Made by a program: the position numbers and the translations under genes. The notes under the pieces were generated by a model. That model worked only from the letters and a program-made list of their open reading frames with translations. It did not search any database and was not told the origin of the DNA. 64,000 bases of DNA from Acidobacteriota bacterium (GTDB lineage: Bacteria; Acidobacteriota; Thermoanaerobaculia; Multivoradales; Multivoraceae): the NCBI GenBank assembly GCA_003388555.1, contig QQVD01000048.1:1-64000 (forward strand), read 5' to 3'. How positions within the stretch are numbered: the stretch's first letter is position 1; each line of letters begins with the position of its first letter. Below, in pieces: positions 35,999 through 53,853 of this stretch.

Positions 35999-36418
35999 AT
36001 GCAAGCACTCACCATTGGACAGTTGGCGGCCGGGGCGGATGTCGGGGTGGAGACCGTCCGCTTCTACGAGCGGAAGGGGTTGATCCCCGAACCGCCGAGA
36101 CGAGCCTCAGGCTACAGACAGTATCCACCAACGGCTCTGGAAAGGCTCCGTTTCATCCGCCGTGCCAAGGTCCTCGGATTCACGTTGGACGAGATCCGGA
36201 AGCTCCTCGAGCTGAGCACGTCGCCGGCGTCGAGCCGCGATCTCGTCCGCAGACGGGCGAAAACCAAAATCGCCGACATCGAACGACGAGTCGCCGACCT
36301 CGAGCGGATTCGTCGCGCGCTCTCCGCGCTGGTCCGGGACTGCGCCGAGGGCGGAGATCTAGATCCGTGCCCTATTCTTGCTGCCCTCGGCGACGACGAG
36401 GTAGAGGCGAGTCAGTGA
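35999..36418 (+). CDS. MerR-family metal regulator, CueR-like
   Basis: Winged-helix domain at residues 3-70 ([20 protein letters not shown]) then a dimerisation helix and metal loop with C115 and C124 ([16 protein letters not shown]). The position equivalent to the first Cys of Hg-sensing MerR is Ser/Arg here (PASSRD), and CueR has Ser at that place, so a monovalent copper/silver sensor is likely. AGGAGG precedes the ATG. Its stop overlaps the start of the copper ATPase gene (TGATG). Confidence 0.75.
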
Positions 36419-38850
36419 TGCAACCTACTTCGACCAGCGATCAACCGGCAAGCCAAGAGCAGGACCCTGTCTGCGGCATGGAGGTCGATCCTCGCACGGC
36501 CTCACGACGGACGGAGGCTGCAGGGCAAGTGTTCTACTTCTGCTCCGATGGCTGCCTCGCGAAATTCGAGCTTGATCCCGAACGCTATCTAGGGGCCACG
36601 GCACCTATGTCGGCACATGGAGACTCCCTTGCGACCTACGTTTGCCCAATGGATCCGGAGGTTCGTCAACAAGGACCTGGCAACTGCCCCAAATGCGGTA
36701 TGGCCTTGGAGCCGGAGACGCCTGCCCTAGGATCGCGCACCGAGTACACCTGCCCTATGCACCCGGAGATCGTCCGGAACGAACCTGGATCGTGCCCGAT
36801 CTGCGGCATGGCCCTGGAGCCCCGGATCGTGACCCTCGAGGAGGAGAACCCCGAGCTGCGCGACATGACGCGCCGTTTCTGGTTCGCTGCGGCAATGGCC
36901 GTCCCAGTTCTCGCGCTCGCCATGGGCCACATGTTGCCGGGTGACCCGGTGTCGAGATTTCTCTCGCCACATCGGCGCGTGCTGGTTGAGATGCTCCTAG
37001 CGACGCCAGTGTGTCTGTGGTCGGCGTGGCCCTTCTACCAGCGGGCGTGGCAGTCGCTGGTCAACCGAAGCCTCAACATGTTCACGTTGATCGGTCTCGG
37101 GGTGGCGATTGCCTACGCCTACAGTGTCGTTGCCGCCGTCGCGCCGGGCCTCTTCCCAGAATCGTTGCGAGACGAACACGGGACGGTTGGCGTCTACTTC
37201 GAAGCGGCGGTGGTGATCGTGGCGCTGATACTGCTCGGTCAGGTCCTCGAACTGAGGGCGCGCAGCCGGACAGGGGCGGCGATCCGCGCGCTCCTCGGTT
37301 TGGCTGCCAAGACCGCGCGGCGCATTCGCCCGGACGGCATCGAGGAGGATGTGCCGCTCGACGTCGTCCAGATCGGCGACCGTCTACGCGTGCGTCCGGG
37401 CGAGAAGGTGCCGGTGGACGGGTCGGTGGTCGAGGGAGAGAGCTCGGTCGACGAATCGATGGTGACCGGCGAGCCCATCCCAGTGAAGAAGCAGAGCGGT
37501 GATGCGGTCATCGGAGCGACAGTGAATGGTACCGGATCGCTGCTGATGGAGGCAGAGCGAGTTGGTTCGGACACCCTTCTGTCGCGAATCGTAACCATGG
37601 TCGCGGAAGCGCAGAGGAGCCGGGCTCCGATCCAGAAGCTCGCTGACCGCGTGTCCGCTTGGTTCGTGCCGGCGGTAATTGTGATCGCGGTGGCGACCTT
37701 CACGATCTGGGCCCTGATCGGGCCCGAACCGCGTCTGACGTACGGGTTGGTGAACGCGATTGCGGTGCTCATTATCGCGTGTCCTTGCGCCCTCGGGCTG
37801 GCGACGCCGATGTCGATCATGGTGGCGACCGGCAAGGGCGCCTCGGTGGGTGTTCTCTTCCGCAACGCCGAAGCGATTGAACGCCTGCGCGACATCGACA
37901 CGCTGGTGGTCGACAAGACTGGAACTCTGACCGAGGGAAGGCCTGCGCTGGTGACGGTGCAGACGCACGGTGGCATCAGCGAGCAGGACATGCTGAGCGC
38001 CGTGGCATCGCTCGAACGTGCGAGCGAGCATCCGCTGGCCGAGGCCATCGTTCGGGGAGCCGAACAACGCGATGCCCGGTTCACGGACGCCGCGGACTTC
38101 GAGTCGGTCACCGGCAAAGGGGTTCGCGGTCTCGTCGACGGCAAGCGCATCGCGATCGGCAATCGCGCGATGATGGAAAGTGTGGCTGTCGATCCAACAC
38201 CGCTCGAGGAGCGAGCCGAGGCCTTGCGGGGCGAGGGTCAGACGGTGATGCTGGTCGCTGTCGACGGCGACTTTGCAGGAATCGTCGGGGTGGCGGATCC
38301 CATCAAGGACAGCACCCCGGAGGCGATCACGTGGCTGAAGGAGGAGGGCTTGACCGTGGTGATGCTCACTGGCGACAACGAGACCACGGCGCGCGCGGTG
38401 GCAGAACGTTTGGATATCGACCAGGTGATCGCCGGGGTGCTGCCCGCGGAGAAGGCCGCGAAGATCGAGTCACTGCAGGCCGAAGGTAGGGTGGTCGCCA
38501 TGGCTGGCGATGGCATCAACGACGCTCCTGCGCTCGCTCGAGCCGACGTCGGCATCGCTATGGGAACCGGCACCGACGTCGCCATGGAGAGCGCCGGGGT
38601 GACGCTGGTCAAGGGCGACCTGCGCGGCATCGTGCGGGCGCTCCGACTGTCGCGCGCGACCATGCGCAACATCAAGCAGAATCTGTTCTTCGCCTTCGCC
38701 TACAACTCGCTGGGCGTACCCATCGCTGCAGGTGTGCTCTATCCGGTGTTTGGACTCCTGCTCAGCCCGATCATCGCCGCCGCAGCGATGAGTTTGAGCT
38801 CGGTCTCGGTGATCGGCAACTCGTTGCGCCTGCGACGCGTCGAACCATGA
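36418..38850 (+). CDS. copA: CopA-type P1B-1 copper ATPase with YHS and two HMBD modules
   Basis: Residues 1-50 contain a YHS/TRASH domain ([25 protein letters not shown]). Two heavy-metal-binding modules follow (YVCPMDPEV...[10 protein letters not shown] and YTCPMHPEI...[10 protein letters not shown]) in place of HMA domains. The ATPase core has CPC in [28 protein letters not shown] and [10 protein letters not shown]. It should export Cu(I) or Ag(I) from the cytoplasm under control of the coupled CueR-like regulator. The start was set at the ATG that overlaps the regulator stop. Confidence 0.92.
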
Positions 38851-39611
38851 TCCGGTCACTGTTCGAGAGCCGGCCGGTGCTGACTACGCTCCTGGCGGCG
38901 GTTCTCGCGTACATCGTCCTGCAGACCGCTTGGACGGGATGGAACATTCTGCGGTCGAGGAGTCTCGAACCGGTTGCTGTCGGCAGTAGAGCGATTGGCA
39001 GTGGTGGACCGGTTCTGTCGATGTTCGTCACCGGCGATAGCGCGGGGGCGGGTCTTGGAGCCACGTCCTGGCAGACTTCGTTCGTAGGACGTGTGGCCCT
39101 TAGCTTGGCGACCGGCCGGCACGTGGAGGTGCGCAACACGAGCGTCTCCGGAGCCAAGATGGCCGATCTCTCGGCACACTCGCTTCCAGAGAACCCCGTC
39201 GATCTCGTCCTCCTCTCGGCGGGGTCGAACGATCTGTTCCACCTCACCGGAGCCGAGGACTTGGAACGATCCGCGGTCGAAGTTCTCGAGCGGTACGGCG
39301 AGGTCGCCCGGCAGGTCGCGGTGATCGGCCCGGGGATGATTCACGGAGCACCGGCCGACCCGTTGGTGCTCCGGCTCGTGCACTGGCTGCGGCGCCCGGC
39401 CTACGTGGAGGCGCTGCGGAGGGCCGCTGCCGAGGCCGGGGCGACCTACGTCGACCCTTGCGGCGACATGGATTCATTGACCGATCAGCAGATCGAGGAC
39501 ACGGTCAGCGATGTCGACAACTTCCACCTCAGCGATGCAGGCCACGCGTGGTGGGCGCAGAGGATTCTGACTGAGCTGTCTCGTCACGGGTTCGCAGACG
39601 TGGAGGGTTGA
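38847..39611 (+). CDS. Membrane-anchored SGNH/GDSL hydrolase
   Basis: One N-terminal membrane helix, then the SGNH blocks: GDSAGAGLG with the nucleophile Ser, GSNDL with the conserved Asn, and [10 protein letters not shown] with Asp and His. It is probably a periplasmic esterase or lipase-like enzyme acting on lipid or cell-wall esters. It overlaps copA by 4 bases and so belongs to the copper operon, a less common partner. Confidence 0.75.
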
Positions 39612-39716
39612 GAGCCAGAACGTGAGGCGCCCCGTACCGAGAGGTTGAGCCTGCCTCGATGACCACACGGACGAATACCAGCAGCGTCAGTTCAGCGATG
39701 CGGTGAAGGAGAAACC

Positions 39717-40133
39717 ATGACCATGCTGAAGATCGGCCAGGTCGCGCGGGCGACCGGATTCACAGTGGAGACGATCCGCTACTACGAGAGCATCGGCCTC
39801 ATCCCGGAGGCCGAACGCTCATCTTCGGGCTACCGTGTGTTCTCTGCAGAGATCGTGCGGCGCCTACGTTTCGTCCGCCGTGCCCAGAACGTTGGTTTTT
39901 CGCTTGACGAGACCCGCAGGCTCCTCGAACTCCAGGGTCATCCGGATGCCTCGGCAACCGAAGTTCGGGAGCTCGCCAGTCTCAAGCTCGCCGAGATCGA
40001 AGAGAAGCTCTCGGACCTCGAGCGGGTTCGTGACGCTCTGCTCGCGGCGTCCTGCTCCTGCGATGGGTCGGGGTTGGTGCGCGAGTGCTCGATTCTCGAT
40101 GCACTGGACGGCAGCGGCGAAATCTCTGGTTGA
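39717..40133 (+). CDS. MerR-family regulator of the selenoprotein operon
   Basis: Typical MerR winged helix (KIGQVARATGFTVETIRYYE) and C-terminal metal loop with C113, C115 and C124 (SCSCDGSGLVREC). The C-x-C-x8-C pattern equals that around C115/C117/C126 of Tn501 MerR, but the position of C82 is Ala. AAGGAG precedes the ATG. A MerR-type promoter overlaps its stop codon and points at the downstream HMA-like selenoprotein gene. The inducer is probably a soft thiophilic metal, possibly Hg(II); this is inference. Confidence 0.75.
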   Translation: MTMLKIGQVARATGFTVETIRYYESIGLIPEAERSSSGYRVFSAEIVRRLRFVRRAQNVGFSLDETRRLLELQGHPDASATEVRELASLKLAEIEEKLSDLERVRDALLAASCSCDGSGLVRECSILDALDGSGEISG

Positions 40134-40160
40134 CCCTGAAGCGACTTCAGACTCTACACT
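40130..40160 (+). promoter_or_regulatory. MerR-type promoter for the HMA selenoprotein operon
   Basis: -35 TTGACC and -10 TACACT with a 19-bp spacer containing the perfect dyad CTGAAG-CGA-CTTCAG. It begins within the stop codon of the MerR gene at 39717-40133 and should be its target. Confidence 0.7.
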
Positions 40161-40220
40161 CTCATGAACGCCTGAGGATCGCGCGTCATCGGAAGGCGGA
40201 AGACAACCGGGAGAGCAATC

Positions 40221-40754
40221 ATGACCCTTCACAGAATCCTTGCCACGAACCTACTCGCCATCGCCCTGTCGACGAGCGCAGGAGCGCAGGTCGAACGCGT
40301 CGATCTCGATATCGCAGGCTATCTCTGCGGCTTTTGAGTGTACAACGTGAAGGCGGCCGTGAGCCGTCTACCATTCGGTCCGAAGCCCAAGGAGATGGAG
40401 GTGACGGACATCGCCTCGGGGCACTTCGTGTTCTCGCCCGTTCGTGAAGAGAAGGTGTCCTACGAGGCACTCGAGAAGGCCATCACGGACGCTGGATACG
40501 AGATCGAAGATGCGAAGGTCGTGGTCTCGGGGACCATGACGGAGGAGCGGCACCTGGAGACCGCCGAGGGGCAGGTGTTTCAACTCGCCGCGTCTGCGGA
40601 TGAACTGAAAGGCCGCCTTGAGGAGATCGAGCCAGGTGCGGCTCTCCGAGTTCGTGGGGACTGGCTGTTTCGTGCTGGAACCGACACCATCGACGTCGTC
40701 GAGTTCCTGGAACCGGCCGCGCCTGAGGTGGACGGCGGAGAAGACGGGCATTGA
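40221..40754 (+). CDS. Candidate selenoprotein: exported HMA-like (MerP-like) protein with C-x-x-U
   Basis: Reading from the ATG at 40221 (GAGAG upstream) gives a signal peptide (ILATNLLAIALSTSAGAQ), then VDLDIAGYLCGF, an in-frame TGA at 40335-40337, and VYNVKAAVSRLPF in the same frame, running 139 codons to a TGA at 40752. The joined region matches a heavy-metal-associated domain whose metal motif CxxC (as in MerP) becomes C36-G-F-U39. A hairpin with a G-containing loop sits at the right distance after the TGA. The C-terminal 80 residues are an additional domain. Product 177 residues, probably periplasmic. A nonsense mutation is the alternative, but downstream codons look well conserved. Confidence 0.72.
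40351..40369 (+). promoter_or_regulatory. Candidate bacterial SECIS element
   Basis: A 7-bp stem (AGGCGGC with GCCGTCT, one G-U pair) closes a 5-nt loop CGTGA. The loop G lies 22 nt after the TGA at 40335-40337, inside the usual window for bacterial SECIS elements. Stem and loop are part of the coding sequence. Confidence 0.5.
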
Positions 40755-41626
40755 GATCGATCGTCCTCGCGCTGGTGATCTCGGTGGGGTCGGTAGCGGC
40801 CCTCGAGGCTCGCCCGATTCGTACGAACACCCCGGGGACGGGTGTCTTCATCGGCACCGGCCTCGTCAGTCAGATCCTCTGCGAGGAATCGTCCCAAGTC
40901 GGGAGTACGCTCAGCGGCTGCACGCTGCTGGGAGACTTCCGCTATACGCCGGCGACACATTGGGTCCTCGGGGTCCGCGCACCGCTGTACGTCGAGCGGG
41001 AGGTGTCACACCAGGGACGCGGATGGTCTCGAAGCGGTGTCGGCGATGTCGAACTGTCGACCAAATACCGGTTCTTCCGACAGGTCGGCCCGTGGTTCGA
41101 TCGTCATGCTGCCATCGAAGTCGGAGCGAAGCTGCCCACCGGTGAGAGCCGCATCGAGGACGGTTCTCTACCGGCCACGCTCGCCCATCGTCTGGCCCCC
41201 GGCACGGGATCCACGGACTACTTCGCTGAGTTGATCTATCAACAGGGCCAGGGACGATTCGTGTGGGGAGGAGGCCTCCAGTACCGGCGGAACGGCACGG
41301 GCGAGGAGGGCTATCGCTTCGGGGATGTCGCCAGGTTGTCCTTCGACCTCGAGTACATCGCCTTTCCCCGGGAATACAAAACCCCGGGGAAAGAGGTCTT
41401 TCTCCTCTTGGAAGGTGCGCTGGTCCATCGTTCCGACGACGAGTTCGTCGGTGCGGCGATCTCGACCGGCGGAACGGAACTGCTCCTCGCTCCCGGCGTG
41501 CAGCACATCGCTTCGGAACAGATGCTCCTCTCCCTGTCTCTGCAGTTCCCGGTCTGGTCGGATCTCGAGTTGCAGTCGATCGAGAGCGACTGGAGCCTGC
41601 TCGTCGAACTCCGATTCGCATTCTGA
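40751..41626 (+). CDS. Outer-membrane barrel protein (transporter-like)
   Basis: TTG start overlapping the preceding stop by 4 bases. A signal peptide (LALVISVGSVAALEARP) precedes about 270 residues of amphipathic beta strands ending in SLLVELRFAF, an outer-membrane insertion signal. It resembles the phenol-degradation MetA-like outer-membrane transporters. Its position between the HMA selenoprotein and the permease suggests a trans-envelope route for one metal species. Confidence 0.6.
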   Translation: MRSIVLALVISVGSVAALEARPIRTNTPGTGVFIGTGLVSQILCEESSQVGSTLSGCTLLGDFRYTPATHWVLGVRAPLYVEREVSHQGRGWSRSGVGDVELSTKYRFFRQVGPWFDRHAAIEVGAKLPTGESRIEDGSLPATLAHRLAPGTGSTDYFAELIYQQGQGRFVWGGGLQYRRNGTGEEGYRFGDVARLSFDLEYIAFPREYKTPGKEVFLLLEGALVHRSDDEFVGAAISTGGTELLLAPGVQHIASEQMLLSLSLQFPVWSDLELQSIESDWSLLVELRFAF

Positions 41627-41628
41627 TC

Positions 41629-42537
41629 GTGAGCGAGGTGTTTGCCAACGCTTGGCAGAACGCGGTGTCGACCGCGCGCTACCTGCTCGCCTACAACTAT
41701 GTCCTCGTCCTTGCTCCGGTGGCGCACGTGCTTCTCGTTGCGCTCGGGTCGGCAAAGCAAGGTGCCCGTGGCGAGCGGGGGTGGCTGCGAGCCTTCTTCT
41801 GGGGGCTTGCGGGACCGCTCTCCGGCGTCCGGTTGGGCCGTAACGTCGGAGCTTTCGGCACGCCCAGCGCCGTGATCGTGTACCTGTCTGTCGCTCACAC
41901 GCTCACGGCCCCGTTCTGGATCCTGCTCGGTCCGTTGCTCGGTAAGGACTTTCTGCTGTCGCACGTGATCGGAATGGCGCTGTTCGTGAGCTTTGCTTGA
42001 ATCATCTCCCGATTCTCGGGCATCCGCTTTGAACGGGCCGGTTTCGAAGACCCACCTCGTGAGCAGGGCACAGCCCGTGTCGCACTACTCGAAGGCTCGC
42101 GGGTCGTCGTCTACATGAGCCTCGGCCTCGTACTGGGCGGCTTGGTCGCTGCCTGGGGCTTCTCTCGAGCCGCCTGGGCGCCTGCCGAGGTTGGGAACGG
42201 TGGGTTCGAGACCCAGTTGGTCAGTGGCGTGATCGGCGCTTCACTCGGACTGCTGGGCGTCCCGCCGGTCGCCAACATGGTCGTCGCGACCTATCTCTGG
42301 AAGACGGGGCTAGGTCAGGCCGGCATCGTGGCGTATCTCTGCGCAGCGACCTTGGCCCCTTATCGCTGGCCCCTATACGCGAGGCTGTTCGGTTCTCGAG
42401 GTGCCCTTCGTCTCATGGCGCTCATCCTGGTCGCATCGTTGTCGGCCGGCCTGGGGACAGCGCTGATCTTCGGGGTACTCGATGTGGATATCCGCTACAA
42501 GCTGCTGCCGGAACAGCTTTGGGTTCTCGGGAACTAG
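41629..42537 (+). CDS. Predicted permease with in-frame TGA (candidate selenoprotein or nonsense-interrupted)
   Basis: From a GTG 3 bases after the outer-membrane gene, the frame encodes several membrane helices up to MALFVSFA, meets TGA at 41998-42000, and continues IISRFSGIRFERAGF in the same frame without any other stop to 42537, giving further helices (GVIGASLGLLGVPPVANMVV; LRLMALILVASLSAGLGTAL). The whole resembles a COG0701-like permease, though this assignment is uncertain. Residue 124 would be selenocysteine. Only a weak CCCGA/TCGGG hairpin without loop G follows, so readthrough is less well supported than in the two neighbouring cases. Confidence 0.5.
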
Positions 42538-42648
42538 TCGAGTCTCTGAAAATCGAAACACTCTCGGTCCTCGATGCACCGAAGCGCAGCGCCCGTGGAC
42601 GGTGCGGGCGATGAGGAAGGTCACGAGAGAGGTCGCAGTCGGCTTGTT

Positions 42649-43239
42649 CTAGCGGGAGTTGCCCACTTCGCTCATCTTTGCGACGAGCCGATCTGGATCA
42701 AGACGGCGGTCCGGATAGCTCCGCCGGAGCCGGTCGAGTTGATGTTCCCACCAGGTGGGTTCCGGAAGCTCGTCGGACCATTTGGCGTCTGGCCCGTAGA
42801 CCATCCAGAAGTCCCAGGCCGGCATCTCGAGCTCCGGAACAAACCTCCGCACTTCGCTTCCGACGAGTCGACCAGGATCCCAGAAGTGCTGCACTCGGTC
42901 TCCACTCATGAGCTGGATCGCGTTGGCAACGTGCTTCTCTTTGGCACCCAGATCGGGTGTCGAGACGACGAACAGCCGGACATCGGTTTGATTTGCGGCC
43001 TCAAGGGCCTTGGCGACTTCGGAGACCCCCCGAAGACAGACTCCTCACGTGGGTCCCACGAGCAAGATGGCTCGTGGGTATCCAGCAGCTTCATTGAAGG
43101 CGGACTCGAGGGTCTCCACGCTGCCATCTAGCACTCGGTAGTCGGTTTGCGTGGAAGTAGTAGCAGCCACGAGGGTTCCCGTGAGGAGGATGCTGACGGT
43201 GAAGAGATCGATAGACAAGACGCGTCGAACCATGGCCAT
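42649..43239 (-). CDS. Candidate selenoprotein: membrane-anchored thioredoxin-like protein with U-x-x-C
   Basis: The ATG at 43239 directly follows the merT stop. After a membrane helix (FTVSILLTGTLVAA) the protein reads YPRAILLVGPT, an in-frame TGA (43047-43045, residue 65), then GVCLRGVSEVAKALEAAN and continues to 42649, 196 residues in all. The site is U65-G-V-C68 at the end of a strand, the position of the redox motif in thioredoxin folds. Conserved-looking blocks follow (VVSTPDLGAKEKHVANA, HFWDPGRLVG, AWDFWMVYGP). A hairpin with apical GGUCU follows the TGA at SECIS distance. It is the last gene of the mer operon. Confidence 0.8.
43017..43035 (-). promoter_or_regulatory. Bacterial SECIS element of the U-x-x-C protein
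   Basis: On the minus strand, 9 nt after the TGA, a perfect 6-bp stem CTTCGG/CCGAAG closes the loop GGGGTCT. The GGUCU in the loop is the same as in the E. coli fdhF SECIS as I remember it, and the loop begins 16 nt after the TGA. This is strong support for selenocysteine insertion. Confidence 0.75.
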
Positions 43240-43668
43240 TTACACCATACTTCGAAGGAACTGCAGGACGTTGAGCCCGAGCGCTAGAGCCCAGAAGGCG
43301 GCGGAGCACCACAGCACGGCGCGGACCGGCAGTGGCCGTCGAACCGGACAGGTGGCATCGTCGCTGCCTGGGCGCGGCCGGTAGACCGTCCAGAATCCGT
43401 AGCCAAGAAGAAGTCCAGAGAGAAGAAGGATTGGAAACGCATATGGGGCGAGCCCCGCTGCCCAAACGGCGCCGCTCACGCCGAGCACACTCACAAAGAG
43501 AGGCGCGAAGACTGGAACACAACAAGCGCTAGCGGCCGTCGCTAGCGCAGCGGCGCCCGCGCTTGTGGTCACAGCACCCCACGTTCTGGCGTTCGAATCC
43601 TGAGTCAAAGAGCAGGCCCTCCGAACAGCGCCAAGAGGCCTAAGCACGTCGCGGAACACAGGACGCAT
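43240..43668 (-). CDS. merT: MerT-like mercuric ion transporter
   Basis: Three membrane helices; the first carries the paired cysteines in ATAASACCVPVFAPLFVSVL, matching the CC pair in helix 1 of MerT, which takes Hg(II) from MerP. A second Cys pair region is weaker (DATCPVRR in the loop). About 25 residues precede the usual MerT start, so translation could begin later. The stop is immediately followed by the selenoprotein ATG. Confidence 0.78.
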   Translation of the reverse strand: MRPVFRDVLRPLGAVRRACSLTQDSNARTWGAVTTSAGAAALATAASACCVPVFAPLFVSVLGVSGAVWAAGLAPYAFPILLLSGLLLGYGFWTVYRPRPGSDDATCPVRRPLPVRAVLWCSAAFWALALGLNVLQFLRSMV

Positions 43669-43707
43669 GTCGTGCGGCAGAGGGTTCGGCAGTTCGTTCT
43701 CATCAGT

Positions 43708-44184
43708 TCATGCTCCCTTCGTGGAGTTGGCATGCGCGAGCGCTTTCTTGATGTCTCCCAGACAACATCGGCCCGTGGGGTTTCTCACCGAGCAGGCGCA
43801 TTTCTTCTCTCTCGTGGCGGTACGGATGGACTCGACGATGCGGCTCTGCCGGCCGCGGTCGATCTCGTCGAGGATATCGGTCAGTCGATGGTCAAAGCAG
43901 AAGCAGGCCTGCCCCTGGAGACCGGCCTTTGCCAGCGGTAAATGGCGCACGTTGCTCCGGTTGACCACGCTACGCCCATCCACGCTGAAGTAGACGACAT
44001 CGCAGTCGGGGTCCTCACACACCAGGTAGGCGGTCTTCAGGGGCAAGGGGCCAGAGGTAAGGGCCGCCACGGTCTCCCAGGAGACGGAGCGACCGCGAGT
44101 GGCGGAGTTCGGGCAGACCGGAGGTGAGCGCACCTGCGTCTTCTCGACGCAGCATGCAGCGGCTAGTTCGTTCGCTTGTTCCAT
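43708..44184 (-). CDS. CopZ-like iron-sulfur/zinc metallochaperone
   Basis: The 158-residue protein resembles the N-terminal half of CopZ of Archaeoglobus: early CC, a CPNS where CPxC is usual, VCEDPDCDVVYF, then CFCFDHRLTDILDEI and CACSVRNPTGRCCLGDI. The latter cysteines bind a 2Fe-2S cluster and the former zinc in the characterised member. One zinc-site Cys appears to be Ser here. It lies 7 bases after merR, first in the operon after the regulator, and may reduce or deliver metal. Confidence 0.72.
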   Translation of the reverse strand: MEQANELAAACCVEKTQVRSPPVCPNSATRGRSVSWETVAALTSGPLPLKTAYLVCEDPDCDVVYFSVDGRSVVNRSNVRHLPLAKAGLQGQACFCFDHRLTDILDEIDRGRQSRIVESIRTATREKKCACSVRNPTGRCCLGDIKKALAHANSTKGA

Positions 44185-44191
44185 CGAAAAG

Positions 44192-44596
44192 TCAGATCCG
44201 TCGGTGGTTGATCTGATCCAGAGTTGGGCAGTCATCTGCTGCGTTCGCATCGCAGGCCGCGTGAAGCTGCTCGAGGTCCTGCTGAATCTCCTCGAGAGAC
44301 CGAATGCGAGATCGGATATCGGCGAGCTTTCCTTCGACGCGCTCGCGCACGGAATCGCAGGCGGTCGACGGTTCGTGGCGAAGTTCGAGTAGCTCGCCGA
44401 TCTCGGAGAGCGAAAAGCCCAGCTGTTTGGCGCCACGGATAAAGCGCAGGCGATCCAACTCTTCGCTGGAGTATCGCCGGTAGCCAGCGGCACTACGCGG
44501 CGGCTCCGGGAGGAGGCCCTGCCGCTCGTAGAACCGGATCGTTTCGACTCCCACGCTGGCTTGTTGCGCGAGCTGGCCGATGGTCATCGCTTCCAT
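44192..44596 (-). CDS. merR: MerR mercury-responsive regulator
   Basis: Winged helix at residues 4-70 (TIGQLAQQASVGVETIRFYE) and a dimerisation helix. Three cysteines C80, C115 and C123 are spaced like the Hg(II)-binding triad of Tn501 MerR (35 residues apart, then 8 instead of 9). It precedes merT on the same strand, and its own promoter has the MerR geometry. This makes Hg(II) the likely inducer. Confidence 0.82.
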   Translation of the reverse strand: MEAMTIGQLAQQASVGVETIRFYERQGLLPEPPRSAAGYRRYSSEELDRLRFIRGAKQLGFSLSEIGELLELRHEPSTACDSVRERVEGKLADIRSRIRSLEEIQQDLEQLHAACDANAADDCPTLDQINHRRI

Positions 44597-44602
44597 GACT
44601 GG

Positions 44603-44634
44603 ATTCTAGAACCCGTACCCTGGTACGGAGTCAA
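44603..44634 (-). promoter_or_regulatory. mer operon promoter/operator
   Basis: Read on the minus strand: -35 TTGACT, perfect dyad CCGTAC-CAGG-GTACGG, -10 TAGAAT, spacer 20 bp. The TTGACTCCGTAC start is identical to the classical mer operator. It drives merR and the downstream Fe-S, merT and selenoprotein genes. Confidence 0.78.
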
Positions 44635-44736
44635 GCTTGGGTGAGCCGTGGAGTGGCTGATTCCGGTTTTCCCGAGACCGGTGCGACGAAGTGTGCAAGC
44701 TGGGATTGCGCGAACGCCCGCGCTAGGGTGGCGGAG

Positions 44737-45561
44737 ATGAATGCCAAGTTTCTTCCCAGCGTGGCGGCGATCAGAGAGGGTGAAGTCGATGCCCTCCTCG
44801 CGGAACTCTCCCGATCTCCCGCCCTAGCCGCGGACAGATCGACCTGCAGCCACCCCACGCTGATGCAGTGCCTCGCGCTGGATGGTGTGGACCTGCCGCT
44901 GGCGACCCAGCGGACAATGGCAAGGGCACTCCTCGAGCGCGGTTCTCCAATCGACGAGCCCTTGATTGCCTGCGCCAGCGTGGGGAATCTGGTCGTTGGT
45001 CAGTTCTTGATCGAGGCCGGCGCGTGTCTCGACGGTCGAGTGGATCTAATCGAAGGTTGGAGCCCGCTCGAAGAGGCTCTCTACTGGGGGCAGCAGGAGA
45101 TGGCAGCGGTTCTGCTCGCCCGCGGAGCCCGAATCCGGAACCTCCGAACGGCCGCCGGGCTGGGCCAAGTCGAACAGACGAAGCGCATGGCGGAGAACAT
45201 CGACCAGGCAGATGTGAGAGCTTCAGTGCACTCACCCTTCGGTGCGCTCGGCCGTGAGGGCGACGCCGTTGAGCAGGAAGTGCTCGACAATGCCTTGGTC
45301 TACGCGGCAATGGGAGGTCACTGTGAGGTCGCCGAGACACTCTGCGCGCGCGGCGCGAATGCGGCCTCGTTTCCTGCAGGGTTTCACTATCGAGGGGCGC
45401 CGCTGCACTGGGCGGCCCATCGAGGCCACCAGCAGACCTGCCGCACCCTGTTGACATTGGGCGCAGACCCCGGGGCCAGAGATCTGACCATCGAGAAGAC
45501 AGCGGCGGAGTGGGCCGTTCATGCTGGTCACGAGCAGCTGGCTGCTGAACTGTCCTGGTGA
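44737..45561 (+). CDS. Ankyrin-repeat protein
   Basis: The 274-residue protein consists of ankyrin-like units, for example GWSPLEEALYWGQQEMAAVL, GAPLHWAAHRGHQQTCRTLL and KTAAEWAVHAGHEQLAAEL. No signal peptide is seen, so it is probably cytoplasmic and binds a protein partner. It is divergent from merR and could share its control region. The start at 44737 (GGCGGAG just upstream) is preferred over GTG at 44641. Confidence 0.7.
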   Translation: MNAKFLPSVAAIREGEVDALLAELSRSPALAADRSTCSHPTLMQCLALDGVDLPLATQRTMARALLERGSPIDEPLIACASVGNLVVGQFLIEAGACLDGRVDLIEGWSPLEEALYWGQQEMAAVLLARGARIRNLRTAAGLGQVEQTKRMAENIDQADVRASVHSPFGALGREGDAVEQEVLDNALVYAAMGGHCEVAETLCARGANAASFPAGFHYRGAPLHWAAHRGHQQTCRTLLTLGADPGARDLTIEKTAAEWAVHAGHEQLAAELSW

Positions 45562-45848
45562 GTCGCAAGCTGGCTTCGCCGCAGTCGACGTCAGAACAGC
45601 AGTGAGATCCACGACGAAGTTGTCGGCCCCATTCCGGCTCTTCTATTGAGCTTGGAGCAGGAGCGTGTCTGAGCGATTCGGTAGCGAGGCGACGACGTAC
45701 GGAACGGGTGCAGCTGGGCGGCCGTCCTCCGAGACATCCTCGAAGCGGAGGCCTGCAGCGGACCAACGCAGCTTGCCTAGTTTCGCAAAGAGTCACAGCC
45801 CAACTTGGGGCGACAGCGCGAACCACTCGTTGGTGTAGTGCGTCGAGA

Positions 45849-48347
45849 TCAGGTTGCACTCCGATAGGCCAGCAGCCGAAGTGCATTGGCGACGACGATC
45901 AGGGTCGAGCCCTCGTGCAAGACGACGGCAAGACCGATTCCAGCGAAGCCGAACAGGGTTGCCGGAATCAGGAACGCCACCATGCCGAGACTGGCCCACA
46001 GGTTCTGCCGAATGATTCGGCGGCTCGCCCGGCTCAGTCCCACCGCGAACGGAAGCGTCGCCAGGTTGTCGGCCATGAGCGCAACGTCTGCTGTTTCCAA
46101 CGCGACGTCCGAGCCGCTGGCTCCCATGGCGATCCCGACATCGGCTTGGGCCATTGCGGGCGCGTCGTTCACGCCGTCGCCCACCATCGCGACCACTGAG
46201 TCTCCTGAACCGAGTTCGCGGATCGCTTCGACCTTCTGCTCCGGCAACAGGCCTCCTCGTGCCTCGTCGATCCCGACCAGGCTGGCGACCGCGTCGCCGG
46301 CTCGTTGGTGATCGCCGGTAAGCATGATCGTGCGGCGGACACCGAGCCTCTTGAGACGCTGAAGCGTGTCCTTTGCTGACTCACGGGGCGTGTCGAGCAG
46401 GCCGAGTACGCCGAGGAACTCTTCGCGCGTCGCGACCACGACGGTTGTCTCGCCAGCGTCGGCCAGCCGTTGCTCCGCGCTCGCCACCTCATCTGGAAGC
46501 CGGCGGTCGAGGCGCTCCTCGAACAATCCTCGCTTGCCGATCCAGACCTCCTGGCCTTCGACCTGCGCCTTCACCCCGTAGCCCGTGATCGACTCGACGG
46601 AGGATGCTTCGGCAACCGAACCCCCGAGGTCCTCTCGAAGGCCGTCGACGATCGCTGTCGCCAGTGGGTGATCGCTCTCACGTTCCACGGCCACGGTGAG
46701 CCGAGCCAGGATCCCGTGATCGACACCTGGTGCTTCGACCACGCTGGTGAGCCGCGGCTCGCCCTTGGTGAGGGTTCCGGTCTTGTCGAAGGCGATGACG
46801 TTGGCGGCACCGAGAGTCTCCAGGTGACTACCGCCCTTGATCAGCACGCCGCCGCGAGCAGCCCGGGCCACGCCGCTGAGGACTGCGCTGGGGGTCGCAA
46901 TGGCCAATGCGCATGGACTGGCCGCCACGAGCACCGCCATCGCCCGGTAGAAGCTCGCGGAGAACGGCTCGTCGAGCACGACCCAAGCGAACATGCACAG
47001 TGTGGCGAGAGCGAGCACCGACGGGACGAAGATGCGCTCGAACCGATCGGTGAAGCGCTGTGTGGGCGAACGCTGCGTCTGCGCCTCCCTGACCATCTTC
47101 ACGACGCGAGCGAGAGTGCTGTCGGCCGCCGGACGCGTGACCACGACCTCCAGACTCGAAGGGCCGTTGATCGTGCCTGCAAAGACCTTCGATGCGTCGT
47201 CGATTGACGCTGTCTCTCGGAGACTGGCTTCGGGGTCCGCGACCGGCTTCTTGTCGACCGGGATGCTCTCGCCGGTGATCGGGGCCTGGTTGACGGCACT
47301 CGTGCCGTCGACGACGAAGCCGTCGGCAGGAACGCGGCTATTGGGCTTGATCAGCAAGCGGTCGCCTAGGGCCAGCTCCTCGACCGCGACCTCTTCTTCC
47401 TGGCCACCCGGCAGGAGCCGAAGAGCAGTCCGTGGAGCGAGTTCGGCAAGTGCTTCGATCGCTCGTTTGGCTCGGCCCATGGCGTAGCCCTCGAGGGCGT
47501 GACCGAGGCTGAACAGAAAGAGGAGAAGCGCACCCTCAAACCACTCGCCGAGTACGGCCGCGCCCGCCGCGGCTACCAGCATCAGCGAGTCGATCTCCAG
47601 GCGTCGAGCTCGCAGCGCGCCGATCGCCTCGCGAACGGTGAACCATCCCCCGAAGAGGTAGGCGACGACGAAAGGAGCGATCAGCAGCCACCGTGCGAGA
47701 TCGACATCCCACCGATCGAGCAGCCACCCCACGAGGGTGGCGACGCCAGCGAGGATGGAGAACACGAGCTCCGTCGCCCGCCCGAAGACGCCGCCGTGTT
47801 CATGGTCATGCGGTTCGCTGGTTTCGTGGTCGTGGGCCGCGCCGTGCTCGGCGTCATGGGGTTCGTGATCGCTTGGCCGCGCTTCGGCGCTTTGCGGTCC
47901 TGCTTCCCTGATGGAGACGCCAAGCCTGTTGAGATGCGCCCGGATGGAGTCCTCGTCCGTGATCTGTCGGTCGAACTCGATCCGAATCGGGCCACCTGCG
48001 TCCGCCTCTGCCTCGACGACGCCGGGAAGGCGCCTCACCCTGGTGGCAACGGTCCGCGCCCGCCGCTGGTGTCCGAGGTCATCGGTCTCCCAGAGCGCGT
48101 GCCCGTATCGGCCGGTGATCCGCGCGCCAGCCCGTTCGGCGATCCGGCGAATGCGCGGCAGGTCCACGTGGGTTGGTTCGTAGTGGATGCACACCTGAGC
48201 AGCACGCCCTTCTGCCGGTACGAGGTGGATCTTGTCCACACCTGCTGCTGCGGAGAGTTCGTCCGTGAGGCGCATCGTACACGCGTCACAGGCATCCACA
48301 GAGTTTGGGAGTAGTACATCGAGGTCGAGTCGAATTGGTTCGGCCAT
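45849..48347 (-). CDS. P1B-type heavy-metal ATPase with SPC motif (Co/Zn/Cd type)
   Basis: The 832-residue protein has an N-terminal HMA-like domain with CDACTMRLTDEL, a second HMA-like segment without cysteines, and a His/Asp-rich linker (DHEPHDAEHGAAHDHE). The transport site is SPC in VAASPCALAIATPS, with DKTGTLTKGEP and [12 protein letters not shown], and HEGSTL in a late helix. SPC plus HEGS is the signature of P1B-4 ATPases, linked to cobalt, zinc or iron export. It is the last gene of the Czc operon. The longer TTG start at 48476 was rejected. Confidence 0.82.
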   Translation of the reverse strand: MAEPIRLDLDVLLPNSVDACDACTMRLTDELSAAAGVDKIHLVPAEGRAAQVCIHYEPTHVDLPRIRRIAERAGARITGRYGHALWETDDLGHQRRARTVATRVRRLPGVVEAEADAGGPIRIEFDRQITDEDSIRAHLNRLGVSIREAGPQSAEARPSDHEPHDAEHGAAHDHETSEPHDHEHGGVFGRATELVFSILAGVATLVGWLLDRWDVDLARWLLIAPFVVAYLFGGWFTVREAIGALRARRLEIDSLMLVAAAGAAVLGEWFEGALLLFLFSLGHALEGYAMGRAKRAIEALAELAPRTALRLLPGGQEEEVAVEELALGDRLLIKPNSRVPADGFVVDGTSAVNQAPITGESIPVDKKPVADPEASLRETASIDDASKVFAGTINGPSSLEVVVTRPAADSTLARVVKMVREAQTQRSPTQRFTDRFERIFVPSVLALATLCMFAWVVLDEPFSASFYRAMAVLVAASPCALAIATPSAVLSGVARAARGGVLIKGGSHLETLGAANVIAFDKTGTLTKGEPRLTSVVEAPGVDHGILARLTVAVERESDHPLATAIVDGLREDLGGSVAEASSVESITGYGVKAQVEGQEVWIGKRGLFEERLDRRLPDEVASAEQRLADAGETTVVVATREEFLGVLGLLDTPRESAKDTLQRLKRLGVRRTIMLTGDHQRAGDAVASLVGIDEARGGLLPEQKVEAIRELGSGDSVVAMVGDGVNDAPAMAQADVGIAMGASGSDVALETADVALMADNLATLPFAVGLSRASRRIIRQNLWASLGMVAFLIPATLFGFAGIGLAVVLHEGSTLIVVANALRLLAYRSAT

Positions 48348-48495
48348 TGGATTGCGCCTTCTTGGTCTACCTGTGGTTTTGAAGCTGCGCAGAGCAGCCG
48401 TCTGGGTGCCTCGCTCCGAACGTGGCCCGCGCGGCGACTCGTTTGGGCAACGTTCTTCTGCCATCGGTTCGATCAAAGCTTCTTTCGAGTTGGCC

Positions 48496-49314
48496 TCAAC
48501 TGGAGAGAGCGAAAATCCTGCGCGCTCCGTTCGCCACGATCAGGAAAACAAGCGCGCCGGCGATCAGATCTGGGACCGCAGACGAGGTGAACCAGACGAG
48601 TAGCGCCGCCAGGATCACGATTCCGTTGACCTTGATGTCGTTGGACGTGAAGATCCACGAGGCCTCGACGTGCGCTTCCCCGCGTTCTGTTTTGCTCAAG
48701 AGCCAGAGAGTCAGGACGTTCCCGGCGAGAGCGAGCAGCGCCACGACGACCATGGTGAGGACATCGGGCGGTTCCTCGTCCATCGCGAAGCGGCGTATGA
48801 CCTCGACGAGACCGAGAATCGCGAGACCGAGCTGCAGAAAGCCGCTGGAGCGCGCGAGCCGTTTCTTGCGTGCGACCGAACCGCCCACGGCGACCAGGCT
48901 CAGCGTGTAAACGAGCGCGTCGGCAAGCATGTCGAGGGAATCGGCCACCAGCCCCATCGAGCCCGAGACGAGACCGGCGGTCAACTCTCCGACGAAGAAG
49001 GTCGCGTTGATCGCGAGTGCCACCACGAGTGGTCTCCGCTCCTCGCTACCGGAAGCTGAGCCCGTGATGGCTGCTTCGGGCTCGACGACGTCGACTTCGT
49101 GTGCGATTTCGCGTGCGCCCAACCCGAGGGCCTCGAGCTCTTGGGTGATCGTGGTCCGGTCCCGACGGTGGTAGACCTCGAGGCGATGGCCCGAAAGGTC
49201 GAAGGCGAGACTTTCGATTCCCTCCCAGCCGCTCAGACGCATGCGAATCATCTGCTCCTCGGCCGCGCAATCCAACGCGGCGACATGATAGGTCGTTCGT
49301 TTCAGGGAACTCAC
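48496..49314 (-). CDS. Cation diffusion facilitator with N-terminal HMA-like domain
   Basis: Residues 1-75 form an HMA-like fold with an unusual metal motif (ALDCAAEEQMIRMRL) followed by a CDF membrane domain with the metal-site helices SMGLVADSLDMLADALVY and a later HVEASWIFTSNDIKVN. It should export Zn(II), Co(II) or Cd(II) to the periplasm, feeding the CzcCBA pump. The C-terminal cytoplasmic domain typical of CDF proteins is missing or very short. GTG at 49314 has AGGAAG well placed; GTG at 49320 is an alternative. Confidence 0.8.
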   Translation of the reverse strand: MSSLKRTTYHVAALDCAAEEQMIRMRLSGWEGIESLAFDLSGHRLEVYHRRDRTTITQELEALGLGAREIAHEVDVVEPEAAITGSASGSEERRPLVVALAINATFFVGELTAGLVSGSMGLVADSLDMLADALVYTLSLVAVGGSVARKKRLARSSGFLQLGLAILGLVEVIRRFAMDEEPPDVLTMVVVALLALAGNVLTLWLLSKTERGEAHVEASWIFTSNDIKVNGIVILAALLVWFTSSAVPDLIAGALVFLIVANGARRIFALSS

Positions 49315-49394
49315 AGGCACTTCCTCATGAGTTCCAAGAAACGACTTTCAAGTCATGGCGCAGCTGCGGCGCGGGAGCAGTCACCTGCCAACGC

Positions 49395-52300
49395 TCACCC
49401 ATCATCGTCTTGCTCCGGCTGAGTCTTCGCTTGCCCGGATCGGTCCTGCTGGTTGCTGATCGGTTCGCGACCGCTTCCTCTGGCGACCCATGAGTAGAGG
49501 GTCGGCAGCACCAGCAGCGTGAGCAGCGTAGAGGTGACGAGCCCTCCGATGACCACGGTAGCAAGCGGGCGCTGAACCTCTGCACCCGCGCTCGTCGCCA
49601 GTGCCATGGGCACGAAACCGAACGAAGCCACTAGGGCTGTCATCAGCACCGGGCGCAGACGGACCAGAGCGCCCGCTCGCGCCGCTTCGAGCGCGGCCCC
49701 TCCTCGCTCGTGCCGTTCGACGACGTACGAGATCAAGACCACTCCGTTGAGCACTGCGATGCCGAAGAGTGCAATGAAACCAACGCCGGCGGAGATCGAG
49801 AACGGGTATCCCCGAGCCGCCAGGGCCAGGAGGCCACCCGTGATCGCGAGGGGCACGTTGAGGTAGATCAAGGCCGCTAGCCGCGCCGACGCGAAGATGG
49901 TGTAGAGGAGCAGGAAGATCAAGACCAGGGCGAGCGGCACGAGCAGTGCCAGCCTTCGAGACGCCGACTCGAGGTTCTCGAACTGGCCGCCCCACTCCAG
50001 CGTCCAGCCGGCTGGGAGGTCGACTCCGGTCCGAACGGCTTCCTGCGCATCGGCAACGAACGAGCCCAGATCGCGCCCGCGAACGTTGGTCTCGACTGTG
50101 ATCTTGCGGCTGATGTTCTCTCGACTGATCTGCGCAGGTCCGTCCTCGATGGTGACCTCGGCCACCTGCGACAAGGGAACTAGCCGGGGTAGTCCGCCCG
50201 GCATCGCCGGAGGGGCAGCCACCCGCAGATCTCGGACCCGTTCGAGGTCCGATCGAATGGCGTCGTCGAAGCGGACCTGCAGCAGATAGCGCTGCTGGCC
50301 TTCGAGGACGACGCCGGCTGGAATCCCTCCGACTGCCTCGACGACCTGCAGAATCTCTTCGGCGTGAACACCGAGACGAGCTGCCGCCCGGCGGTCGATA
50401 CGGATGCGCATCATCGGCAGTCCGGCGGTCTGCTCCGCCTTCACGTCCGCAGCGCCGGGGATTCCCTGTAGAACGCCGACGATCTCGTTCGCGGTCTTGG
50501 CGAGCCCTTCCAAGTCGTCGCCGTAAATCTTGACGGCGACATCCGAGCGTACGCCGGAAATGAGCTCGGCGACTCGCAGTTCGATGGGCTGCGAGAAACT
50601 GAAGATCGCACCCGGCACCCGCTCGTTCATGGTCTCTTCCAGCGCCTCGACCAGTTCCTCCTTCGTGCCGAAGCGCCACTCGGCCTTCGGTCGCAGCATG
50701 AGGTAGGTATCGCTGATCTCGACACCCATCGGGTCGGTTGCGATTTCCGGCCGGCCGGTGCGCGAGACGATCGTGCGCACCTCGGTGCCGAACTCCTCCA
50801 GAACAACGCGCTCCGCTTCGGTCGAAATCTCATTGGACTGTTCCAGCGAGATCGATGGCAGACGCCAAATCTGCATGGCGATCGCTCCTTCGTCGAGTCG
50901 AGGGATGAACTCCGCACCCATGAACGGGACGAGCAGGAGGCTCGCGAGGAACACTCCCAGTGCGACACCGACGGTCACACGCCTGTGCGCGAGCGACTTG
51001 TCGAGGACCGGTACGTAGATTCGCTTGGCCCAGCGGAACAGCATCGGTTCCTTCTCGGAGACGTTCTTGAGGAACAGGCTCGCGAGCACGGGCATGAGCG
51101 TCAGGGCGAGCGCCAGCGAGGCAGCCAGAGCGAACACCACCGTCATCGCCATCGGCCGGAACATTTTTCCTTCGACCCCGCGAAGCGCGAGGATCGGCAG
51201 GTAGACGATGATGATGATGCCGACCGCGAAGACCACGGGTCTTGCGACCTGATGGGCTGCCGAACGCACCTTCTCGAGATGCGGCACCGAATCGTCTTTG
51301 CGGCGCTCGTGGAGCGTGCGGACGATGTTCTCGATCATCACCACCGACCCATCGACGATGAGGCCGAAGTCGATGGCGCCGAGGCTCATCAGGTTGCCCG
51401 AAATGCCGGCGTTCTTCATCACGATGAACGCAGCGAGCATCGAGAACGGAATGGCCGACGCGACGATCAGGCCGCCGCGCAGGTTCCCGAGCAGAAGGAG
51501 CAGCACGAGGATGACGAGGAGCCCGCCTTCGCCCAGGTTCTTTGCGACCGTCTTGATCGTTCTGCGCACCAGGTCGGTCCGGTCGTAGTAGGTGTCGATG
51601 GTGACCCCGTCGGGCAGTGTGCTTTCGATCTGATCCATCTTCTCCTTCACCCGATCGACCACAACGCGAGAGTTCTCGCCCATCAGCATGAGAGCGATCC
51701 CGACGACCGCTTCGCCCCGCCCGTCGCGGGTCACGGCTCCTTGTCGAATCAACGGTGCGAGTTCTACGGTGCCGACGTCGTCGACGGTGACGGGGGTTCC
51801 GTCGGCGTCGTTGGCGAGGACGACGCGACCCAAATCTTCGAGGTTCTCGATCAGCGCCTCGCCGCGGATCAGGTACTGCTCACCCTCGTGCGCGATGTAG
51901 CCGCCGCCGACGGCACGATTGCTCGACCGCACCGCGTCCAGCACGGCTCCGACCGAGAGCCCGTAGGACGTGAGAGCCGCGGGATCGAGCGTCACCTGGT
52001 ACGTCCTCAGCATGCCGCCAAAGGAGTTGACCTCGACGATCCCGGGCACCGAGCGGAGCTGATAATTGATGAACCAGTCGAGGATGGAGCGCAGTTCCAT
52101 CGGGCTGTAACAAGCATCCGTGTCGGGAGCATCGCTCGGGCACGGGTTCTCCGCCCGCACCTCGAATTGGTAGATCTCACCCAGCCCGGTGGAGATCGGT
52201 CCCATTGCCGGCTCGCCGTAGCCTTCGGGGATGGCCTCGCGCGCTTCGCTCAGACGCTCGGAGACGAGCTGCCTGGCCCAGTAGATGTCGGTCCCCTCCT

Positions 52301-52592
52301 GGAACACGAGGGTCACCGCCGAGAGGCCGAACTTGGAGACCGAGCGCAGTTCCTCGATCCGCGGAAGACCACTCATCGCGGTCTCCACCGGAAAGGTGAC
52401 AAAACGCTCGACTTCTTCGGGAGCGAGACCGGGGGAGTTGGTTAGGACCTGGACCTGGACGTTGGTCACGTCCGGCACGGCGTCGATTGGTAGCTGCAGC
52501 ATGGCGCGCACGCCCAGCACGGCAATGAGCAGCCATAGGACGACCACCAAGAGACGATGGTCGAGGGAGAAATCGATGATGCGTCGGATCAT
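49395..52592 (-). CDS. czcA: Heavy-metal RND pump (CzcA-like)
   Basis: The 1065-residue protein has standard RND length. It opens with MIRRIIDFSLDHRLLVVVLW and keeps the TM4 proton-relay pattern DFGLIVDGSVVMIEN with both Asp and the Glu, as in CzcA. GAGGAG precedes the ATG at 52592. It transports divalent cations such as Zn, Co or Cd across the envelope with the CzcB and CzcC proteins encoded upstream. Confidence 0.9.
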   Translation of the reverse strand: MIRRIIDFSLDHRLLVVVLWLLIAVLGVRAMLQLPIDAVPDVTNVQVQVLTNSPGLAPEEVERFVTFPVETAMSGLPRIEELRSVSKFGLSAVTLVFQEGTDIYWARQLVSERLSEAREAIPEGYGEPAMGPISTGLGEIYQFEVRAENPCPSDAPDTDACYSPMELRSILDWFINYQLRSVPGIVEVNSFGGMLRTYQVTLDPAALTSYGLSVGAVLDAVRSSNRAVGGGYIAHEGEQYLIRGEALIENLEDLGRVVLANDADGTPVTVDDVGTVELAPLIRQGAVTRDGRGEAVVGIALMLMGENSRVVVDRVKEKMDQIESTLPDGVTIDTYYDRTDLVRRTIKTVAKNLGEGGLLVILVLLLLLGNLRGGLIVASAIPFSMLAAFIVMKNAGISGNLMSLGAIDFGLIVDGSVVMIENIVRTLHERRKDDSVPHLEKVRSAAHQVARPVVFAVGIIIIVYLPILALRGVEGKMFRPMAMTVVFALAASLALALTLMPVLASLFLKNVSEKEPMLFRWAKRIYVPVLDKSLAHRRVTVGVALGVFLASLLLVPFMGAEFIPRLDEGAIAMQIWRLPSISLEQSNEISTEAERVVLEEFGTEVRTIVSRTGRPEIATDPMGVEISDTYLMLRPKAEWRFGTKEELVEALEETMNERVPGAIFSFSQPIELRVAELISGVRSDVAVKIYGDDLEGLAKTANEIVGVLQGIPGAADVKAEQTAGLPMMRIRIDRRAAARLGVHAEEILQVVEAVGGIPAGVVLEGQQRYLLQVRFDDAIRSDLERVRDLRVAAPPAMPGGLPRLVPLSQVAEVTIEDGPAQISRENISRKITVETNVRGRDLGSFVADAQEAVRTGVDLPAGWTLEWGGQFENLESASRRLALLVPLALVLIFLLLYTIFASARLAALIYLNVPLAITGGLLALAARGYPFSISAGVGFIALFGIAVLNGVVLISYVVERHERGGAALEAARAGALVRLRPVLMTALVASFGFVPMALATSAGAEVQRPLATVVIGGLVTSTLLTLLVLPTLYSWVARGSGREPISNQQDRSGQAKTQPEQDDDG

Positions 52593-52602
52593 GGTCGTCT
52601 CC

Positions 52603-53853
52603 TCAGTGCCCGTGCTCGCCGCCGAGCTCGTCGCGGGCGAGTTCCGATTTGAGGACGAATGCTCCTTCGCTGACGACTTCCATGCCCGCTTCGAGCCCGG
52701 ACAGAATCTCCACCCACTCGCCTTCCCGACGGCCGACCTCAACGGGTCGAGCGTCGAATCGGCCGTTTCCGAGTGGCACGAATGCGATTTCCCGGCCTTC
52801 TGCGCGGACGACGGCTGCCGAGGGCACCACCAAGCTCTCGGTGCCGTCCGTGTGCGGGTCGCTCAGCCGCACGCTGGCGAACATCCCTGGTCGCAACAGT
52901 CGGGCGGGATTGGCTGCGTCGATTCGCGCGCGGACCGTGCGCGTTTCTGTCGCCACATCGGGAGAGAGGTAGGAAACCTCGCCGGCAAAGACCCGATCGG
53001 GGTATGCGTCCACACGCACCTCGACCTCGTCGCCTTCGTGCACCTTGGCGAGGTCGCGTTCGAAGACGTCGATCCAGATCCATACGTTGCTCAGGTCCGC
53101 GATGGTGAAGAGGTTGTCCGAAGGACTCACCAGCTCACCGATCGTCACGTGCCGTTCGACAATTCGACCGGAGATGGGAGCGCGCACCGGGAGAGAAGAG
53201 GCCCTGAGGTCTCCCGCTTCGAGTCCATCGATCTGACCACCAGACAGGCCGAAGAGCCGTAGCGTCTCGCGTGCGCTTTGCCGGATCGCCTCGGCCTCGA
53301 GAAACTCGGCCTTGGCATCGAGCACTTCTCTCTGTGAGGTGATCCGGTCTTCGTAGAGCTTCTGCTCCCGCTCGTAGGTTTCGCGCGTCACGCTCTCGCG
53401 GCTGCGGGCGGCGAGGTATTGCGCTTTCGCCTCGCCCAGCTCAACCGAGTCGATTGTCACCAGAGTGTTGCCGCGTGAGACCTCGTCTCCAAGGTTTGCC
53501 TGGACATTGATGACCCGACCCGGAATGCGGGGACTGACGTGAGCCCGGAGACTCTGTTCGTAGTCGACCTGACCGGTCGTTTCGAGCTGGGGCCGCAGTG
53601 GTCGGTACTCGACGAGCGCATACTCGATCTCTACTGCTTCCAGCTTTGCCGGCGTCAGCTCGACAACGCCTTCATCGTGCGGGTTCTCACCCTCTTCGTG
53701 GTTTGCGTCGGCGTGCTTTTCTCCACTTTCCGCGCCTATCGACTCTCGCGAAGGTGCGCAAGCAATGGCGAGGGCGAAGAGGACCAGGAACAGGAAGGTC
53801 CCGGCGGTAGCAGCGGCAGTCGTCGGTCCTTGGTGTCGAAGAGTCTGCATCAT
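52603..53853 (-). CDS. czcB: RND adaptor (CzcB-like), probable lipoprotein
   Basis: N-terminal hydrophobic segment ends in ALAIACAPS, a likely lipobox. An acidic, His-containing linker (KHADANHEEGENPHDEG) is followed by lipoyl, hairpin and barrel domains (IPGRVINVQANLGDEVSRGN; APISGRIVERHVTIGE). The protein ends DELGGEHGH. It couples CzcA to CzcC and may bind metal through the His-rich tail. Overlaps czcC by 4 bases. Confidence 0.88.
   Translation of the reverse strand: MMQTLRHQGPTTAAATAGTFLFLVLFALAIACAPSRESIGAESGEKHADANHEEGENPHDEGVVELTPAKLEAVEIEYALVEYRPLRPQLETTGQVDYEQSLRAHVSPRIPGRVINVQANLGDEVSRGNTLVTIDSVELGEAKAQYLAARSRESVTRETYEREQKLYEDRITSQREVLDAKAEFLEAEAIRQSARETLRLFGLSGGQIDGLEAGDLRASSLPVRAPISGRIVERHVTIGELVSPSDNLFTIADLSNVWIWIDVFERDLAKVHEGDEVEVRVDAYPDRVFAGEVSYLSPDVATETRTVRARIDAANPARLLRPGMFASVRLSDPHTDGTESLVVPSAAVVRAEGREIAFVPLGNGRFDARPVEVGRREGEWVEILSGLEAGMEVVSEGAFVLKSELARDELGGEHGH

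Follow-up and report, generated by a model that had tools for sequence, protein, structure and literature searches.

Does the in-frame TGA that interrupts a small gene directly behind a MerT-like gene in this soil bacterium of the Acidobacteria specify selenocysteine, and, if so, does the resulting protein take part in the handling of mercury? The very high affinity of selenium for mercury belongs to textbook toxicology, and to our knowledge descriptions of bacterial mercury systems deal almost exclusively with sulfur. In this light, a selenocysteine (Sec) protein that is conserved and tied to, or fused with, mercury transport proteins across several phyla would offer a natural test of whether selenium chemistry is used deliberately for mercury or other soft metals. 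The features that bear on this question in the window, i.e. the whole stretch of 64,000 nucleotides analysed here, are collected in Table 1.

Table 1 Coordinates of the selenoprotein gene, its recoding elements and its upstream neighbours in the window.
Feature	Position	Strand	Properties and basis
Selenoprotein gene	42649..43239	(-)	196 aa; U65-x-x-C68
In-frame TGA, probable Sec codon for residue 65	43045..43047	(-)	homolog codons, hairpin statistics
SECIS-like hairpin CTTCGGGG-GGT-CTCCGAAG	43017..43035	(-)	9 nt past TGA; folding and covariation
MerT-like membrane protein gene, vicinal CC in TM1	43240..43668 (start tentative)	(-)	NCBIfam MerTP E=4.5e-4, below cut-off
CopZ N-terminal-like iron-sulfur metallochaperone gene, non-Sec form	43708..44184	(-)	NF047645 100.2 bits (cut-off 100); PF18423
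MerR-family regulator gene	44192..44596	(-)	best Hg-MerR TIGR02051, 133.8 bits, below cut-off 150.85; next CueR

The gene comprises 197 codons and is interrupted once, by TGA at codon 65, in the context LLVGPT-U-GVCLRGVSEV. The preliminary description of one minus-strand frame broken by TGA within GPT-U-GVC proved correct to the base (42649-43239, TGA at 43047-43045), and the hairpin that it placed nine bases past this codon is present to the base as well: on the minus strand, CTTCGG (43035-43030) and CCGAAG (43022-43017) enclose the loop GGGGTCT (43029-43023), while the intervening 9-nt spacer reads GGAGTCTGT. In its folded form the element is an 8-bp stem, CTTCGGGG/CTCCGAAG, with the loop GGT. 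The gene had also been said to follow merT directly; here the zero gap stood, with the TAA of the upstream frame ending at 43240 and the ATG of the selenoprotein at 43239, but the name ‘merT’ applies only to a divergent relative that stays below the NCBIfam MerTP cut-off.

As the hairpin region is itself coding, its pairing was compared with a null of synonymous codon replacement. In the window gene, all 8 of 8 stem pairs are formed, compared with 5.2 expected, and none of 500 draws reached 8. Across the family, members with TGA form 6.35 of 8 pairs on average against a synonymous null of 4.39 (p<0.05 individually in 27 of 40), whereas members with Cys or Trp at this site form 3.47 of 8 against 3.22, with p<0.05 in 0 of 15. 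The covariance test proposed for the hairpin was likewise positive: in an ungapped alignment of 25 TGA members, in which the stem corresponds to columns 13-20 paired with 24-31, 86.5% of stem cells were paired and 21 two-sided changes were counted, compared with 4.0 in shuffles. The pairing signal peaks at zero slide only, and shifting the partner by one base abolishes it. A minority of TGA members, e.g. L025, L055 and L070, do not share the common stem and fold otherwise. Separately, GGCGCC-type or other stems were observed in the TGA members L025, L032, L038, L049, L055, L061 and L070, and such stems may suggest a second SECIS architecture within the family.

Homologs were collected by searching 396 genomes from this phylum in all six frames, which recovered the family in 47, mostly with exactly one internal TGA, and by a wider scan of 84,980 species genomes with patterns from alignment A3, whose first row served to confirm the hits. 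The wider scan added loci from Gemmatimonadota, Chloroflexota, Vulcanimicrobiota (Eremiobacterota), Poribacteria, Zixibacteria, Eisenbacteria, Planctomycetota, Calditrichota, Actinomycetota, Pseudomonadota and Nitrososphaerota archaea, individual names being taken with caution because the loci come mostly from metagenome-assembled genomes. A search of the plasmid collection PLSDB found no relatives. After removal of duplicates, about 55 distinct homologs from at least 10 phyla carry TGA (40), Cys (14) or Trp (1) at residue 65, the archaeal members having Cys. The exchange between Cys and Sec expected at this position was thus found in all members but one, and the conservation expected past the TGA is strong and runs on to the C-terminus: W142 is invariant, and W93, W120, A141 and D143 (which flank W142), Y148, W154, P161 and Q167 are invariant or nearly so. 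The single Trp belongs to a member from Calditrichia (L067:5905-6498) that has also lost the second Cys (SPTWLISQ), which indicates that the fold can outlast the redox pair. Standard gene calling cuts the genes of this family at the TGA, and some remain annotated as shortened MerTP-like proteins (L061).

The genome holds selA, selB, selD and tRNA-Sec, with selB over its cut-off and the tRNA scoring 70 bits (gathering score 47). Of the 37 TGA carriers in the phylum sample, 35 have a selB match over the cut-off and two a partial one, compared with a base rate of 251 of 392 (64%) across that sample (Fisher p ~7e-6). Other readings of the codon have to be weighed against these data. A Cys-type gene damaged by a nonsense mutation, or misread in sequencing, would need a single base change from TGC or TGT, and Cys homologs exist; however, TGA occupies the same codon in 40 distinct homologs, the covarying hairpin is absent from Cys forms, the sole carrier genome without any selB (G329) has a Cys copy only, and the coding composition is kept past the TGA, which leaves this explanation highly improbable. 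That the TGA might be a genuine stop, separating two short proteins of which the second would begin at an internal start (e.g. ATG 42909), agrees with the existence of mechanical ORFs of 64 and 86 aa, but a stop here would split the thioredoxin fold between its first strand and its catalytic helix, and Cys homologs read straight through, so that we give this reading hardly any credence. Both readings, the broken gene and the true stop, were rejected in view of the recurrence of the TGA, the hairpin statistics and the coding composition. UGA-65 is very probably a real selenocysteine codon, as predicted by computation.

To characterize the protein, an AlphaFold2 model was built from 29 window and locus sequences, a single-sequence model being poor (pLDDT 43.5). 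The resulting model (pLDDT 89.1, pTM 0.81) displays a thioredoxin (Trx) fold spanning residues 34-196, preceded by a hydrophobic N-terminal anchor or signal at about residues 8-27. This agrees with the membrane-anchored, thioredoxin-like protein anticipated earlier, with the TGA at the end of a beta strand: in the model, strand 56-61 runs into the U65-G-V-C68 motif, which is followed by helix 66-81. The best structural matches were DsbF (Z 12.6) and ResA (Z 11.7), and the Foldseek matches also include Sco proteins and glutathione peroxidases. At the level of sequence families, a search of 23 members against Pfam, NCBIfam and PDB gave no meaningful match, the best being PF00085 with E=0.16 in one member. 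Many members have a hydrophobic segment or lipobox at the N-terminus, and the Trx domain should therefore lie outside the cytoplasm. From the model we are confident in predicting a TlpA/ResA/DsbF-type thioredoxin fold with U65-x-x-C68 at the start of the catalytic helix.

The question of which metal the locus serves is less easily answered. The unit in the window runs from a MerR-type regulator over a CopZ-N-terminal-like Fe-S metallochaperone and the MerT-like protein to the selenoprotein, and the order CopZ-like, MerT, selenoprotein is repeated in G152, the closest relative, which shares 47% identity and is placed as sister with 100/99 support. The MerR-type and MerT-type proteins are both homologous to their namesakes and both fall under the curated cut-offs; a Pfam search of the MerT-like protein gave no match to PF02411, and its counterpart in the sister genome (L071) matches this family with E=1.2e-6. 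MerA was found neither in the operon nor over the cut-off in the genome, where the best match, on another contig, reaches 399.9 bits against 454.45. With no MerA over the cut-off, a divergent MerT and a MerR below its cut-off, mercury becomes less certain as the ion of this operon; it is our first guess, but another soft metal could take its place.

The surroundings of the operon deserve a description of their own. ORF translations and neighbour clusters outline a metal-resistance island at 35999-52742, with three MerR-family regulators and two P-type ATPases flanking the operon, as well as a cation-diffusion-like protein and a CusA-like pump. Tail-to-tail with the selenoprotein gene lies a permease-like frame of 302 residues (41629-42540, plus strand; weak PF03773/ArsP_1), which has one in-frame TGA of its own at 41998-42000, followed by a short CCCGA/TCGGG hairpin and continued coding composition. 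This TGA may represent Sec, an error or decay; a search for a homolog covering the site found none.

Across the family, MerT, MerC or MerA is encoded nearby on the same strand in 21 of 73 loci; MerT is found at a distance of up to 500 bp on that strand in 14 loci, MerC in 6 and MerA in 4, as judged by mer profiles that were built from the neighbour clusters of the same loci, with six MerT-like genes checked independently against Pfam. The MerA-containing loci are L041, L047, L070 and L075, with MerA over the cut-off in L075. On the tree, the mer label is clustered yet appears in several clades (9 changes compared with 19.3 in shuffled labels). Two Acidobacteriota loci have the gene order MerR, MerT, a MerA-like reductase, MerC, a GDCCVxC-domain protein and then the selenoprotein. 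Furthermore, several members are direct fusions: MerT-Trx(Cys) beside MerA over the cut-off (L017/L075), HMA-Trx(Sec) in L039, HMA-Trx(Cys) in L062, and a triple fusion MerT-HMA-Trx(Sec) in L061. The C-terminus of MerT is periplasmic, so the Trx domain of these fusions comes to lie on the periplasmic side, next to MerP. The fusions provide the strongest functional hint for the family. For some of its members the association with mer genes is real; as about two thirds of the sampled loci have no nearby mer gene, mer is not the family's sole role. The attachment to mercury import that had been proposed for this gene therefore held in so far as part of the family retains the link (21/73 loci and the fusions), whereas for the operon in the window mercury is less certain, with no MerA over the cut-off.

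Further (seleno)protein domains were observed around these loci. A long frame directly upstream of the family gene in mer operons of Pyrinomonadaceae (L041:4257-5897, also L040, L042 and L047) has a GDCCVxC (seleno)protein domain (NF041374) at its end, and a DF family (seleno)protein domain (NF049942) is fused to a full-strength MerT in L072:5776-6483. A small frame after the family gene in L054:1586-1903 is possibly similar to the latter domain.

Taken together, we consider it likely that the gene encodes a membrane-anchored, extracytoplasmic Trx-like selenoprotein that works beside a MerT-type importer, with proteins of soft-metal uptake as its putative substrates. UGA-65 would be decoded by the SelA/SelB/SelD/tRNA-Sec set of the genome with the help of the hairpin just downstream, and Sec65 and Cys68 would, judging from the model and from conservation, form a redox or ligand pair where the first helix of the Trx fold begins. 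The selenoprotein would then most likely reduce the cysteine pairs of MerT and of the metallochaperone (MerP/HMA or CopZ-like), or exchange thiol and selenol with them, and gene order and fusions suggest that Hg(II), or a soft metal like it, would thereby be bound and passed inward. Selenocysteine could make the protein faster and less prone to oxidative inactivation, or give it a direct affinity for the metal. Members outside mer clusters would presumably act in this way on further exported proteins with thiols. As mer neighbours are missing from about two thirds of the sampled loci, the family's general activity is probably a thiol redox step on metal-binding proteins that are exported.

Two other functions can be envisaged for a true selenoprotein. 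It might be a generic extracytoplasmic thiol-disulfide reductase of the TlpA/ResA/DsbF kind, or a copper-handling Sco-like protein, with MerT as one context among many and a metal other than mercury in the present operon. This would agree with the 52 of 73 loci without MerT, MerC or MerA nearby, with ResA, DsbF, TlpA-like and Sco proteins as nearest folds, with a genome lacking MerA over the cut-off, and with the Cys spacing of the window MerR (35, then 8), which exactly fits neither the usual spacing of Hg-MerR nor that of CueR. However, linkage to mer genes is found repeatedly, in separate clades and in several phyla, and extends to operons with MerA and to proteins fused directly to MerT and HMA domains; moreover, the CxxxC motif of Sco proteins is absent, the family motif being U/CxxC; on balance we regard this reading as rather unlikely, though worth keeping in mind. 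In classical operons, the two thiols of MerP take metal in the periplasm and relay it to MerT. A comparable selenolate relay, in which Sec65 and Cys68 would themselves be the ligands of Hg(II) or another soft metal and hand it to the vicinal cysteines of MerT, appears doubtful to us. We retain the reading of a selenoprotein that acts on the cysteine pairs of the uptake proteins.

Selenoproteins of mer-type systems have been catalogued before, namely a putative mercuric transport protein (PF02411) and an UxxU metal-binding protein (PMC13188914, PMC9312934). The earlier remark that such a selenoprotein was not known from mer operons therefore holds for the Trx-like family and fails for selenoproteins of mer-type systems in general; no description of a mer-linked Trx-like selenoprotein was found in the literature searched, which excluded the organometallic eight-family paper (PMC9879109). 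The catalogued UxxC Trx-like selenoproteins GOS_C (NF045500), SaoT (NF040730) and the HUIPC motif family (NF047660) (PMC13188914, PMC2398784) share fold type and motif with the present family, but their NCBIfam models gave no match at E<=1 to 23 of its members, and the 2026 catalogue (PMC13188914, Table 1) lists no family whose NCBIfam or Pfam model matches. Since it fits no catalogued model, we rate the Trx-like family as new among selenoproteins and absent from public family libraries, in a kind of system that is already known. It adds an uncatalogued family whose Cys counterparts extend up to archaea.

With TlpA, ResA and DsbF proteins it has in common the Trx fold, a CxxC-type motif opening the catalytic helix and a membrane anchor or signal, whereas identity is only about 10-16% and no Trx model of Pfam or NCBIfam matches the family. 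We know of no TlpA, ResA or DsbF family with its A-W-D before strand 144-148 or its W/P/HQL C-terminal motifs. NCBIfam also holds selenoprotein models of the CopZ and MerT/CopZ types, NF045877 (Csac_0668 family CopZ_Nterm_CU) and NF045683 (MerT/CopZ fusion-like heavy metal transport selenoprotein), which are built on the kinds of partner that surround the window gene; there, the MerT/CopZ part itself is the (seleno)protein, whereas the MerT-like and CopZ-like genes of the window have no in-frame TGA and Sec resides in a separate Trx-like protein. The classical mer operon, finally, has the order merR-merT-merP-merA. The operon in the window resembles it in its MerR-family regulator, MerT-like importer, metallochaperone-type protein and tandem genes on one strand, but instead of merP and merA it contains a CopZ-like protein, with a seleno-thioredoxin added.
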